Shown here piece by piece: positions 18,160 to 53,479 of a DNA stretch of 64,000 nucleotides. Position numbers and translations under genes: made by a program. Source of the DNA: Flavobacterium urocaniciphilum. Its GTDB lineage: Bacteria > Bacteroidota > Bacteroidia > Flavobacteriales > Flavobacteriaceae. Below the pieces are notes generated by a model. The model was not told the DNA's origin. It did no database searches and was given only the letters and a program-made list of their open reading frames with translations. Location of the stretch: the NCBI RefSeq assembly GCF_900110615.1, contig NZ_FOEI01000003.1, positions 124,001-188,000 on the forward strand. The letters run 5' to 3'. The first letter of the stretch is position 1. Each line of letters starts with the position of its first letter.

Positions 18160-18188
18160 TTGTTTGTATCGTAATTTTTGTACTTTTG
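18160..18188 (+). promoter_or_regulatory. Promoter of the interrupted oxygenase gene
   Basis: TTG at 18160-18162 and TACTTTTG at 18181-18188 (18-base spacer) are a full match to the Bacteroidota promoter pattern, ending 23 bases before the oxygenase start codon. It may now transcribe only the N-terminal fragment. Confidence 0.6.
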
Positions 18189-18211
18189 TTTTTGAGAAAA
18201 AGAAAAACTTG

Positions 18212-18817
18212 ATGATAAATTTTGAATTTTTAGAAGCAAATAAAGAAAATTTACGTGTTCAATATTTAACGGCACAACCATTTCCTTATTTAATTATTGA
18301 TAATTTCTGTGATGAAGAAAAGCTTTTAAGAGCTTATGATTCCATTCCAGAATTAGAAAACAAAAGCAGAGATTATGCTTTTGCCAACAATAAATTTGAA
18401 AAATCAAATTATAAAGTTTTATCTCCAGAATTAGAAGAATTATACTACGACTTATCTTCAGATAGATTTAATGCAATATTATCTTTTATTACTGCTAAAA
18501 AGACATTTGTTGATCCAAAAAATCATGGTGGAGGATTACATCAAGGTAAGAAAAACAGTTTTTTAGACATGCATTTGGATTTCAATTATCATCCGTTACA
18601 AAAAAATTGGTATCGTGAATTGAATTTACTATTGTATTTAAATAAAGATTGGAAACCTGAATACAAAGGCGGTTTAAAAATTAAAGATTTGCGTACTGAT
18701 GAAGAAGCAGAATTAGAAGTACCGTTTAACAGATTGATTATTCAGCAATGTGCTCCTTATACATTACATGGATATGATATGACTAATTTCCCAGAAGGAA
18801 GATACCGTACATCCATT
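18212..18817 (+). pseudogene. 2OG-Fe(II) oxygenase, N-terminal fragment (cut by prophage)
   Basis: Non-heme iron dioxygenase related to prolyl hydroxylases. The iron ligands H121, D123 and H186 and the 2-oxoglutarate-binding R199 are all in this 202-codon piece. Immediately after RTSI the reading frame enters prophage sequence and stops at 18856 after 12 foreign residues. The missing 56 codons are at 53309-53479. The ATG at 18212 is chosen over one 16 codons upstream because it lies after the promoter and begins the conserved MINFEFLEAN start. Confidence 0.88.
18814..18817. other. Left copy of the target-site duplication (CATT)
   Basis: CATT here and at 53305-53308 is the only overlap that rebuilds the oxygenase in frame (Arg-Thr-Ser-Ile-Ala-Thr-Tyr). 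A Mu-type element usually makes 5 bp; the fifth base differs (C versus A). Confidence 0.75.
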
Positions 18818-18826
18818 TATAATCGA

Positions 18827-18914: not shown

Positions 18915-18938
18915 AAAGCCCCAATGAGGGGCTTTTTT
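18915..18938. terminator. Terminator at the prophage left end
   Basis: AAAGCCCC / GGGGCTTT stem with a 6-base loop and a T-run on the + strand. It overlaps the end of the leftward formyltransferase gene and also blocks rightward read-through from the host oxygenase promoter. Confidence 0.8.
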
Positions 18939-19605
18939 ATGTACTTGGAGAGCCGTAACGCTCAATCATAAGCAAATCGGGTTTATACACATCTTTTACA
19001 TCTGTATTCGGCTCAAAAGTGCTAAATTCTTTCTTCTGTGGCTTTTTTATAATTATTCCGTTACTTATATCAAATAACGCTTTTTCAATCAAACGTAGCC
19101 CCATAGATTGTAATTCATGTTCCCATAATAGTCGTGCCGCTTTCCTTGAATCCATTGCGTACATTTTAGGATCAATAAAGCAAAAGTCTTGGTAAGCAAT
19201 ATCGCCTCTATCAATACCGTCATTTAACCAAAATACAGAACCTCCAGTTATTGGGTCACGCATTCGGATTGCCCACTCAATAGACGAACGCCCACGATGG
19301 CGAGGTAATAAACTCGGATGGTATCCAATCCACCCAATTTTAGCCTTATACCTTGTTTTCTTTCCTATATAATCAAATGAGTGGGCGGTTATTCCAATAT
19401 CTACATTATCCGGGAAAGTATCAGCGGTTAATGTTCCCGCTGGTACATGCCTAATCCCAAAAGTATGAGCCATTTTTGTAACATACTTATCATCTAATGG
19501 CGAACATACGCCTACAATTTCGACAAAATCAAGCCTATTACAAAGACTGAATACTTGCTCCCCAAAATACTTTTGTCCCGATATAAAAACTCTTATTTTT
19601 TTCAT
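18937..19605 (-). CDS. Formyltransferase family protein
   Basis: Predicted to transfer a formyl group from 10-formyltetrahydrofolate to an amine. The folate-enzyme hallmark HPSLLPRHRG is near residue 95, followed by GGSVFWLNDGIDRGDI, as in methionyl-tRNA formyltransferase and GART domains; 222 residues, so the catalytic domain with a short C-terminal part. The start overlaps the GNAT stop by ATGA. Last gene of the prophage left-end module, suggesting modification of nucleic acid or another phage target; substrate unknown. Confidence 0.8.
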   Translation of the reverse strand: MKKIRVFISGQKYFGEQVFSLCNRLDFVEIVGVCSPLDDKYVTKMAHTFGIRHVPAGTLTADTFPDNVDIGITAHSFDYIGKKTRYKAKIGWIGYHPSLLPRHRGRSSIEWAIRMRDPITGGSVFWLNDGIDRGDIAYQDFCFIDPKMYAMDSRKAARLLWEHELQSMGLRLIEKALFDISNGIIIKKPQKKEFSTFEPNTDVKDVYKPDLLMIERYGSPST

Positions 19606-20024
19606 TTTCCTAAATATTTAAACGCCTGTACGGCTCTAAAATGGCCACCATAACCACACCCTGTTATCGTGCCTTTTCCGGTTCTATTAATACTATCTTT
19701 ACTCCTTACTTTATTTGAGCCGTGGAGCATTGCATTAGTTTGAAGCCATTTGTTAGAATGCCTCAAATAACCGCATAATTGTGGGTGTGAAGTATGAAAA
19801 AAAGTGTGATATTTATGCCCACATCTTCCTTTACCGTCTAAATGATATTGCATTACTTCATTTAAAAAAGCAGTTCCAACGCCTGCACCTTGCCACTCGG
19901 GCATAACAACTAATCGGGTTGCACGATAAGCCTTTGCAGTAAATAAAGGGCAAACGGCCAAATGGGCCACAAGCTCTCCGTTTACCGTAGCGACAAAATA
20001 TTCAGCCGCAGGAGGGTGGGGCAA
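19602..20024 (-). CDS. GNAT acyltransferase domain (second half of ABC-GNAT fusion)
   Basis: GNAT fold with the acyl-CoA-binding motif (VVMPEWQGAGVGTAF) and a family-typical HPQLCGYLRHS stretch. The only start codon in this stretch is a TTG that would begin in the middle of the domain. The frame is open upstream to 20111, and those 29 codons read as the missing N-terminal part (KRPSIKLDIW...), joining the ABC ATPase by a -1 shift. Mu Mom is also GNAT-related, so a role in DNA modification is worth considering; not shown. Confidence 0.75.
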   Translation of the reverse strand: MPHPPAAEYFVATVNGELVAHLAVCPLFTAKAYRATRLVVMPEWQGAGVGTAFLNEVMQYHLDGKGRCGHKYHTFFHTSHPQLCGYLRHSNKWLQTNAMLHGSNKVRSKDSINRTGKGTITGCGYGGHFRAVQAFKYLGK

Positions 20025-20026
20025 AT

Positions 20027-20716
20027 CTAAATAATAATGCTCTTTAAAATACTTCCAGTAAGTTCCGTTTGTCTTCCAAATGTCGAGCTTGATAGATGGT
20101 CGTTTTTGGACTTTTTTTTTACTTCACCAGTTCGAGTATCATATACCCAATCTGGTTGCAACCACTCTACAATATCATAGTGACATGAAAGTAGTACGAT
20201 TTGTTTGCCTTTTGTTCGCCTCCACGATTTAGCGAAAGCCGATGCACCAATTTGAGCTATTTGGCGGTCAACGACACTCGTAAACTCATCAATAACCACT
20301 TTATCGGGAGCATCGCAAATTAACCGAGCTAATCCCGCTCTATATTGCTCTCCATTGGATAACGCCTTAAATGGACGTAACCAAGCTGGGACATCTCCAA
20401 GCCCTACGGCCGATAAAGATGCTGTAACTTCGTTTAAGGACTTTTTAGGGGCGATATTATCTACAATAGGTAAATTATTATCCCAACCCGAATAAAGGTC
20501 GTGAATAGCAACATTTGACCAAATTTGCTTACCTATTGAAGTTTTGCCCGAACCCGATGCACCTACAATAAGCCCTATTTGCCACTCGTCGTCTTCTATT
20601 GGTAGCTCTGCCGTATGCTTCCACTCGTGGCCACTTTCGGCATTAAATAATGATTTTACTTTTTGAGCTCTAAAACTCTCAAAATTTTTGCAACTGTGGT
20701 TTACTTCAATTTTCAT
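20027..20716 (-). CDS. Soluble ABC-type ATPase (first half of ABC-GNAT fusion)
   Basis: P-loop ATPase without membrane segments: Walker A VGASGSGKTS near residue 51, ABC signature LSNGEQYRAG, Walker B KVVIDEFTS and an H-loop SCHYD. The zero frame ends about 28 residues after an A9 run (20112-20120) with an unrelated tail, while the -1 frame continues into the GNAT domain, giving a 371-residue fusion. ABC-GNAT fusions of this kind are known in phages and plasmids. The start overlaps the small upstream gene by ATGA. Confidence 0.8.
   Translation of the reverse strand: MKIEVNHSCKNFESFRAQKVKSLFNAESGHEWKHTAELPIEDDEWQIGLIVGASGSGKTSIGKQIWSNVAIHDLYSGWDNNLPIVDNIAPKKSLNEVTASLSAVGLGDVPAWLRPFKALSNGEQYRAGLARLICDAPDKVVIDEFTSVVDRQIAQIGASAFAKSWRRTKGKQIVLLSCHYDIVEWLQPDWVYDTRTGEVKKKSKNDHLSSSTFGRQTELTGSILKSIII
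20111..20120 (-). other. Slippery A9G run joining ABC and GNAT frames
   Basis: On the - strand nine A and a G read A-AAA-AAA-AAG in the zero frame. A -1 slip enters the GNAT frame at once. This can be a programmed frameshift or a one-base loss in a homopolymer. Confidence 0.65.
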
Positions 20717-20844
20717 ACACTAACTACTTTTAAATCTTTAAATCCCATTTCTTTTAATTTTTCAAAAATTTGTTTTTGCTCCTCCTCGCTACTACACTTC
20801 ACGATAACGGCATGTTGTTCTTTGTACGTAAAATTTTTACTCAT
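20713..20844 (-). CDS. Small conserved-looking phage protein (43 residues)
   Basis: Starts MSKNFTYKEQHAVIVKC and has an acidic helix (SSEEEQKQIFEKLKEMG) followed by a short beta strand, a compact ferredoxin-like half. Its stop overlaps the ABC-ATPase start by ATGA, so the two are translationally coupled. I know similar tiny proteins beside phage ABC-GNAT genes, but no function. Possible regulator, in the position of Mu com. Confidence 0.6.
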   Translation of the reverse strand: MSKNFTYKEQHAVIVKCSSEEEQKQIFEKLKEMGFKDLKVVSV

Positions 20845-20885
20845 TCGTTTTTTGATTGATGATTAATTAATGATTATATTTGTGC

Positions 20886-20995
20886 CTCTGACCACTAAAC
20901 ATAAAAAAAACCCACAAGCTAAAGAAGACTTATGTCCTCCGTAGCCTGTGGGTTCTTGTTTAAAAAGTGGTCAGAGATTTTTTAAAGCGGAGGAC
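20886..20995 (-). ncRNA. Structured leader with terminator hairpin and predicted pseudoknot
   Basis: Three nested pairings are perfect or nearly so: an 11-bp outer stem (20886-20896 with 20966-20976), an inner 12-bp stem with one mismatch (20909-20921 with 20942-20954), and an 8-base pairing between the inner loop (20934-20941) and 20988-20995, which makes a pseudoknot. On the - strand the inner stem is followed by eight T, an intrinsic terminator, about 60 bases before the left-end module. It could act as an attenuator or protein-binding leader. Confidence 0.6.
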
Positions 20996-21029
20996 TTTTT
21001 TACGCTATCCTACCAAAGCGTTGATTTTT

Positions 21030-53308: not shown

Positions 53309-53479
53309 GCTACTTATGCCTATCAAATACATAATAAAATTCTAGAAACACCTCGTACTACTGATTGGTTTCCAAAAGAAGACGCTTCTGTATTTAAAAA
53401 ACTATTAGCTAAAAACTTTAATTTTTTAGTACAAACTAAGAATAAGTTTTTTGGAAGTGGAACGGCTAAAAATCAGTAA
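53305..53479 (+). pseudogene. 2OG-Fe(II) oxygenase, C-terminal fragment
   Basis: Reads IATYAYQIHNKILETPRTTD onward for 57 codons to a normal stop. Without the phage it continues the frame of 18212-18817 exactly, giving a 258-residue protein. It lacks its own start and the catalytic residues. Its end overlaps the convergent glycosyltransferase gene by 14 bases. Confidence 0.88.

Follow-up and report, generated by a model that had tools for sequence, protein, structure and literature searches.

A predicted phage DNA-modification cassette, with a probably frameshifted ABC-GNAT gene and a linked formyltransferase, at the place where other phages carry mom

What does the last gene cassette of a Mu-like prophage in Flavobacterium urocaniciphilum do? 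The cassette lies in a 64,000 nucleotide (nt) stretch of contig NZ_FOEI01000003.1 (assembly GCF_900110615.1, positions 124,001 to 188,000), hereafter the window, and comprises, in order on the minus strand, the gene of a 43 amino acid (aa) protein, an ABC ATPase, a GNAT domain and a formyltransferase (FT). An earlier sequence-only reading had proposed that these genes might add a formyl- or acyl-type group to phage DNA or another target. Our comparisons suggest that the cassette probably adds a small acyl, perhaps formyl, group to viral DNA and thereby evades bacterial defences; we put the chance at about even that it is a phage DNA-modification cassette, situated where other phages carry mom, that works by the four steps proposed below. 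All four components are present in the window, as had been claimed (list of open reading frames (ORFs) and a PF00551 match), and they are arranged as follows.

18821 to 53317, no strand: Mu-like prophage, ends inferred, inserted in a host gene, with the cassette as last module
20713 to 20844, minus: 43-aa protein with the PHROG 28816 module, the C-terminal module of a ParB_N-like protein; ATGA overlap with ABC
20027 to 20716, minus: ORF of 229 aa for the ABC ATPase, in frame 0, with the Walker A, signature, Walker B and H-loop motifs
19602 to 20110, minus: type F GNAT domain with the motif GGHFR, in the -1 frame with respect to ABC
20111 to 20117, minus: slip heptamer A AAA AAG, within a nine-A run at 20112-20120
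19602 to 20716, minus: fused ABC-GNAT, 371 aa, predicted product of one -1 shift
18937 to 19605, minus: FT-fold protein, 222 aa, PHROG 9240, closest to the hydrolase domain of 10-formyltetrahydrofolate (10-formylTHF) dehydrogenase (FDH)

The ATGA overlaps that were said to couple all the genes are found between the 43-aa gene and ABC and between GNAT and FT, but not between ABC and GNAT, which appear to be one gene in two frames. The stop codon of the ABC ORF falls within the codons of the GNAT HYYL motif, and the GNAT ORF with a TTG start at 20024 begins within the domain and lacks its N-terminal part. The -1 frame of ABC supplies the missing start, RPSIKLDIWKTNGTYWKYFKEHYYL, farther upstream, and after a single -1 shift residues 1-371 of the fusion match PHROG 11143 (profile positions 1-351 of 357, E 5.6e-146). 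The GNAT core motif is intact and the columns that we take to be the ABC motifs (Walker A, signature, Walker B Glu and H-loop) and GNAT motif A are conserved and present in the window ORFs.

Among 72 viral relatives retrieved with the ABC query, the GNAT domain is in frame in many and in the -1 frame in one group, and of 192 loci with a GNAT, 97 have the -1 arrangement (99 of 195 rows, in which L013 and L111, with a broken GNAT, count twice). The heptamer, sought as A AAA AAG, A AAA AAA or A AAA AAC, is present in phase at the frame junction of 92 of these 97 loci (92 of the 99 rows), always in the AAG or AAA form, and at every one of the 90 that adjoin a formyltransferase. As a control, the AAG/AAA heptamer occurred in 3 of 480 segments of 99 nt from the ABC bodies of the -1 rows, and it was present in two of 88 in-frame rows, namely L051 and L193, the latter a metagenome-assembled genome (MAG) inside the -1 clade with one extra A and a continuous frame. 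The distance from the GNAT start to the ABC stop is 73 nt in 87 of the 99 rows. One locus, L150, reads +1, and L042 has an extra frameshift inside ABC. Modelled fusions lacking stops were not used as evidence because the choice of site makes the absence of stops nearly automatic.

Substitution patterns were compared over 381 non-independent pairs of related loci. The frame-0 wobble position accounts for 74% of substitutions in ABC and for 26% in the overlap, where the -1-frame wobble takes 52%; in GNAT the -1 wobble takes 76%. The pattern thus switches frame at the slip site, which indicates that the -1 frame is translated. From these comparisons it is very likely that ABC and GNAT constitute a single gene and that the fusion is made by -1 frameshifting at A AAA AAR.

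Two other origins of the split were considered. A disabling mutation or a sequencing error, with no programmed shift, could draw on the error-prone nature of a nine-A run and on the in-frame reading of L193 within the -1 clade, but so many loci share the -1 arrangement and its heptamer, with a wobble pattern that changes frame at the site, that we regard it as very improbable; moreover, at L007 and L012 the A run is just six or seven long. The in-phase heptamer is still kept there, and likewise at L069, which also speaks against transcriptional slippage on the A run as the source of the fusion in place of ribosomal slipping. Slippage of the polymerase, which we consider rather unlikely, would be consistent with the nine A residues of the window and with the failure to find a common stimulatory RNA structure: no consensus RNA pairs were detected downstream from the slip site (0 pairs, 55 sequences), and among six single folds past the site only that of L012 was clearly stabler than its shuffles (z -3.57). 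Both results count against programmed ribosomal frameshifting, which nevertheless remains our preferred explanation.

The five -1 loci lacking the heptamer (L068, L078, L082, L083 and L085) all lack an FT, and at L068 the GNAT is in another frame, with a GC-rich junction and no slip site. A -1-frame GNAT was seen in five Firmicutes phages, Lactococcus P335, Streptococcus Javan141, Oenococcus Vinitor-27, Thomasclavelia TR-TP2 and Enterococcus 9184, with an A heptamer in that of Enterococcus only. In the Gram-positive phages L078, L082, L083 and L085 (and L084) the ABC stop lies within the HYL codons, and since the A heptamer is absent from four of them, another slip signal or reinitiation is possible. 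In Tenacibaculum phage pT24 (L087, near 3640) a single in-frame TGA interrupts the GNAT frame, and for this reason the record splits ABC and GNAT despite their common frame.

The GNAT domains with a GGHxR motif, denoted type F, are closely tied to the formyltransferase. In the ABC-query set an FT follows 23 of 25 type F GNATs and none of the 40 of type A, two of which are at contig ends. FT-linked GNATs form one clade, type F, with support of 100/100 in a tree of 85 rows, retained from 170 after an 80% identity cut, for which the bootstrap had not settled; L216 and L243, with a variant motif, and L013, L111 and L160, with a broken or cut GNAT, were typed F by eye. The sequence-only reading had suggested looking for the same gene set in other elements, and it was found: in a set retrieved with the FT query (best 80 of 344 viral and best 80 of 487 genome stretches, 146 distinct FTs), ABC and GNAT lie directly upstream in 122 cases, GNAT only in six and neither in 15, while three have too little DNA. 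Tree records with cassettes are named as seven phyla, several of the records being MAGs, and cassettes also occur in Gordonia phages, of which Ligma has an FT and Jace an ABC-GNAT match but no FT match; the cassette is widespread. PADLOC gave only three matches, all on the ABC part (mad3 2e-8, AbiLi 1e-6 and mad8 4e-3), and in a fold search with the ABC-GNAT model the matches listed cover at most residues 1-209, the ABC half.

The window FT matches PF00551 (Formyl_trans_N) with E 9.5e-17 and 61.8 bits, against a cut-off of 26.1, and its structural model has a confidence (pLDDT) of 87. It retains H96, S98 and D132, and carries Gly94 at the position of the Asn of methionyl-tRNA formyltransferase (FMT). 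An Asn two residues before the His is catalytic in amine formyltransferases, and the host FMT has it. All of 18 FTs that were aligned have the His, Ser and Asp, and among 158 FTs examined the Asp motif was found in 147 of the 155 that carry the catalytic-His motif; in these 155 the position two ahead of the His holds Gly 149 times, Ala four times and Ile twice. Profile comparison gave 5e-37 and 130 bits with FDH hydrolase domains against 5e-25 and 91 bits with the best FMT. The His-Ser-Asp triad and this best match suggest that the window FT is FDH hydrolase-like. An amine formyltransferase of the FMT or PurN type was rejected on the replacement of Asn by Gly and on the NCBIfam equivalog cut-offs, neither of which was reached (fmt 48.9 against 201.5 bits, PurN 28 against 150.1).

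The existence of FT relatives with neither ABC nor GNAT upstream implies that the FT is not dedicated to the cassette, and it probably also acts independently of ABC-GNAT. Thirteen of the 15 lone FTs are in bacterial records, most of which belong to Oxalobacteraceae and Alphaproteobacteria, and have no match to Mom, ABC or GNAT in their neighbourhood (loci L204, L205, L207, L211, L219, L222, L227, L230, L234-L236, L238 and L242); the other two are L224, with a GNAT on the opposite strand beside the FT, and L199, in which the FT is cut. The profile phrog_9240 was discarded as a marker of cassette frequency across the genus, because it responds to further formyltransferases of the host as well, with matches in 149 of 150 genomes and in 12 of 14 controls.

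The 43-aa protein is linked to a family of ParB-like proteins. Searches with Pfam and PHROG found no ParB_N domain in it and only the C-terminal module PHROG 28816. In relatives the longer genes directly upstream of ABC are often ParB-like, with the PHROG 28816 module at their end: six of seven such proteins beside FT cassettes match PF02195 (ParB_N) above the cut-off in Pfam, the exception being L012, which matches the ParB-like PHROG 620, and L012, L195 and gene 1 of Gordonia phage Ligma match ParB-like PHROGs in their first part and PHROG 28816 in their last. Ligma gene 1 has no Pfam match, and the ParB-like protein of L079 also ends in the PHROG 28816 module. All four proteins examined upstream of type A ABC-GNATs match ParB_N, that of LE3 below the cut-off. 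The upstream genes of 120 of 167 loci examined fall in one sequence cluster, with a 4-nt overlap in 73 of the 120. On these matches the 43-aa protein of the window corresponds to the tail of a ParB-like protein minus ParB_N. A Com-like role for its gene was rejected on the single Cys and on the PHROG 28816 identity.

The prophage is flanked by sequence of one host gene, extending up to 18820 and resuming at 53318. Near one end lie a transposase (PHROG 310) and a transposition protein (PHROG 296), the cassette is at the other end, and on an ORF reading the late genes run toward the cassette side. The proposed position at one terminus of a Mu-like prophage was thus confirmed: the inferred left phage end (18821) is 116 nt from the FT stop, and mom stops 115 nt short of the end of the Mu record. 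TTAT is common to the host flanks at the prophage ends. The interrupted gene (18164-18820 and from 53318) has no PHROG match and presumably resembles, from its pattern, a 2-oxoglutarate-Fe(II) oxygenase; sugar-related genes are seen nearby by eye.

A link with Mom comes from two Porphyromonas phages, 011a and 012a. They share 87% identity along 3742 bp that include the tail genes, and 81% in the final 91 bp. The interval enclosed by these flanks contains a 43-aa-like gene, ABC-GNAT and a short FT in 011a, and a Mom homologue in 012a, so that in this pair a cassette of the present kind and mom are found at one and the same place. In addition, ParB-like genes overlap ABC-GNAT in Gordonia Ligma and Leptospira LE3, and in Microbacterium phage Appa a ParB-like gene, with a ParB_N match, precedes and overlaps Mom. 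One Mom homologue from a Porphyromonas phage, L249 (BK068093, 4827-5696), is annotated simply as an acetyltransferase.

Mom is a GNAT-like enzyme, and the sequence-only reading had drawn on this resemblance. Profile tests did not bear out a family relationship: hhalign probabilities for GNAT against Mom profiles were 0.1 and 2.6, and none of 14 type F GNATs matched the Pfam Mom family PF25680 at E<=0.01, while a true Mom, as positive control, matched it at 2e-64. Membership of the Mom family is not supported by these tests, and because the GNAT is not detectably Mom-related the case becomes one of a common slot, apparently not of a common family. The idea of a formyl or acyl mark on phage DNA fares better, even though that family link was not found. 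DNA modification is the best-supported reading, from the Mom slot exchange, the ParB-like partners, the position at the phage end as for mom in Mu, a C5 cytosine methylase gene just before the cassette of L010 and a prediction, given in a jumbo-phage survey, that an ABC ATPase-coupled GNAT, with pT24 named, acyl-modifies a nucleobase (PMC7824862). On balance we consider DNA the probable target of the cassette. Formyl or acyl chemistry is plausible, with a concrete route via formyl-coenzyme A (formyl-CoA).

The route that we propose has four steps. At the first, which the comparisons support, a -1 frameshift at A AAA AAR would yield ABC alone together with ABC-GNAT. ABC dimers would then engage phage DNA, helped by the ParB-tail mini-protein of 43 aa, which would bind ABC, and the ratio of ABC to ABC-GNAT may fix the number of GNAT heads per dimer. 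At the third step GNAT would move an acyl group from acyl-CoA onto a base amino group of the phage DNA. The fourth and boldest proposal is that the FT-fold enzyme shifts formyl from 10-formylTHF to the CoA thiol, providing formyl-CoA as the donor, and that the resulting mark is a formylated base amine. CoA has the same phosphopantetheine arm that receives formyl in a known FDH enzyme, and it is the usual acyl carrier for GNATs. To our knowledge, ABC-GNAT would be the first GNAT to use formyl-CoA. The formyl-CoA hypothesis arises from these properties of CoA together with thiol transfer by the FDH domain and, as proposed, by HypX: in ALDH1L1 the formyl group is transferred from the FDH domain to a phosphopantetheine thiol (PMC8748788), and HypX has been proposed to produce formyl-CoA from 10-formylTHF (PMC6802093). 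That the FT supplies formyl-CoA is a tentative suggestion, based on this analogy, to which we give somewhat less than an even chance, and the complete chain, in which an FDH-like enzyme makes formyl-CoA, the frameshifted ABC-GNAT formylates an exocyclic base amine of phage DNA and the ABC-only partner sets the dose, is more doubtful still.

Other substrates and another order of events can be envisaged. The GNAT could attach a larger group, acyl or aminoacyl, to a DNA base, and the FT could formylate this group in a second step, in keeping with the usual action of formyltransferases on amines and with the coupling of the FT gene behind GNAT by ATGA; we consider this unlikely, as the Asn of amine formyltransferases is absent, the nearest match is a thiol-delivering domain and the lone FTs suggest a small-molecule substrate. 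Many GNATs act on proteins or tRNA, and the cassette might acylate a host protein or tRNA, for take-over or counter-defence, instead of DNA. Phage GNATs are indeed predicted, in the same article, to modify host proteins such as RNA polymerase (PMC7824862), but the exchange with Mom at one locus, and the ParB-like partners and end-of-genome place in common with Mom, make such a target improbable in our view.

Several observations weigh against modification of phage DNA via formyl-CoA, in addition to the negative GNAT-Mom comparisons. The Mom exchange is based on one phage pair, and the cassette of 011a has a short FT (157-aa coding sequence) with a divergent sequence (31.5% over residues 69-198). 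An FT is missing after two type F GNATs, L071 and L015, the latter at a contig end, and the 15 of 146 FT relatives without ABC or GNAT upstream loosen the association from the other side. By fold alone the FT is about as close to FMT (Z 27.6) as to FDH (Z 27.1), and the formation of formyl-CoA by HypX, the parallel here, is itself a proposal.

The prediction of base acylation by ABC ATPase-GNAT proteins is said to originate from Iyer et al. 2013. The domain pair of that predicted system (PMC7824862) is the same as ours, and its pT24 protein was retrieved in our search as a homologue with 38% identity; the type F branch differs in its linked FT, the C-terminal GGHxR motif and, in a Bacteroidota clade, the -1 frameshift. 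The statement that no system with this gene set had been described is thus only partly right, the ABC-GNAT core being already described there as a prediction. Searches of the open literature, which leaves out Iyer et al. 2013 and most subscription papers, gave no account of the branch linked to an FT, of its FDH-like FT, of the exchange with Mom or of the frameshift.

Mu com-mom resembles the cassette in having a GNAT-like enzyme (Mom, PF25680) at the phage end, and Mom occupies this slot in 012a, but it shows no detected profile similarity and has neither ABC nor FT, and the 43-aa protein is not Com-like. The N-terminal domain of ALDH1L1 (aa 1-310) is the best profile match of the phage FT, with His-Ser-Asp kept and Asn absent, whereas the phage protein, at 222 aa, is without a carrier or ALDH domain. 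The N-terminal domain of HypX shares the formyltransferase fold (Z 21.2) and the proposed formation of formyl-CoA from 10-formylTHF (PMC6802093), although it is distant in sequence (16%) and HypX makes CO for hydrogenase. Dnd phosphorothioation also combines a ParB-like protein (DndB, formerly assigned to the ParB superfamily) with an ABC ATPase (DndD) (PMC10853773), but it involves sulfur chemistry and has no GNAT core and no formyltransferase.

Beside the cassette, and divergent from it, lies a candidate structured RNA gene (20877-21013, plus strand). It consists of a two-tier hairpin with variable stems and a near-constant tip, AGAAGACUUAUGUCCUCC, followed by a 3' tail that could base-pair with the tip and then by a U run, and it is preceded by TTTG-N20-TATATTTG, a promoter-like site. 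In an alignment of 23 sequences nine of 17 consensus pairs have changed on both sides. A search of 75 sources with the model gave matches in 27 (the window is identical to a model member) and once in its own genome; the matches either adjoin the cassette on its upstream side or lie about 1 kb away from it. No Rfam family was found for the element, all Rfam matches near the cassette being below the gathering score. At L010, L100 and L191 a gene of one cluster lies between the RNA element and the cassette, and at L010 this gene encodes a C5 cytosine methylase (PF00145, E 2.4e-47) and is just upstream of the 43-aa-like gene.

For gene annotation, a consequence of the frameshift is that ABC-GNAT may be split, and so hidden, by routine gene calling, as occurred in the sequence-only reading. 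If the cassette marks DNA, it would constitute a counter-restriction system exchangeable with Mom, and the mark could be readable by mass spectrometry in phages that have already been isolated, such as Gordonia Ligma and its relatives. Were the formyl-CoA route correct, formyl-CoA would gain a role as an acyl donor in nucleic acid modification.

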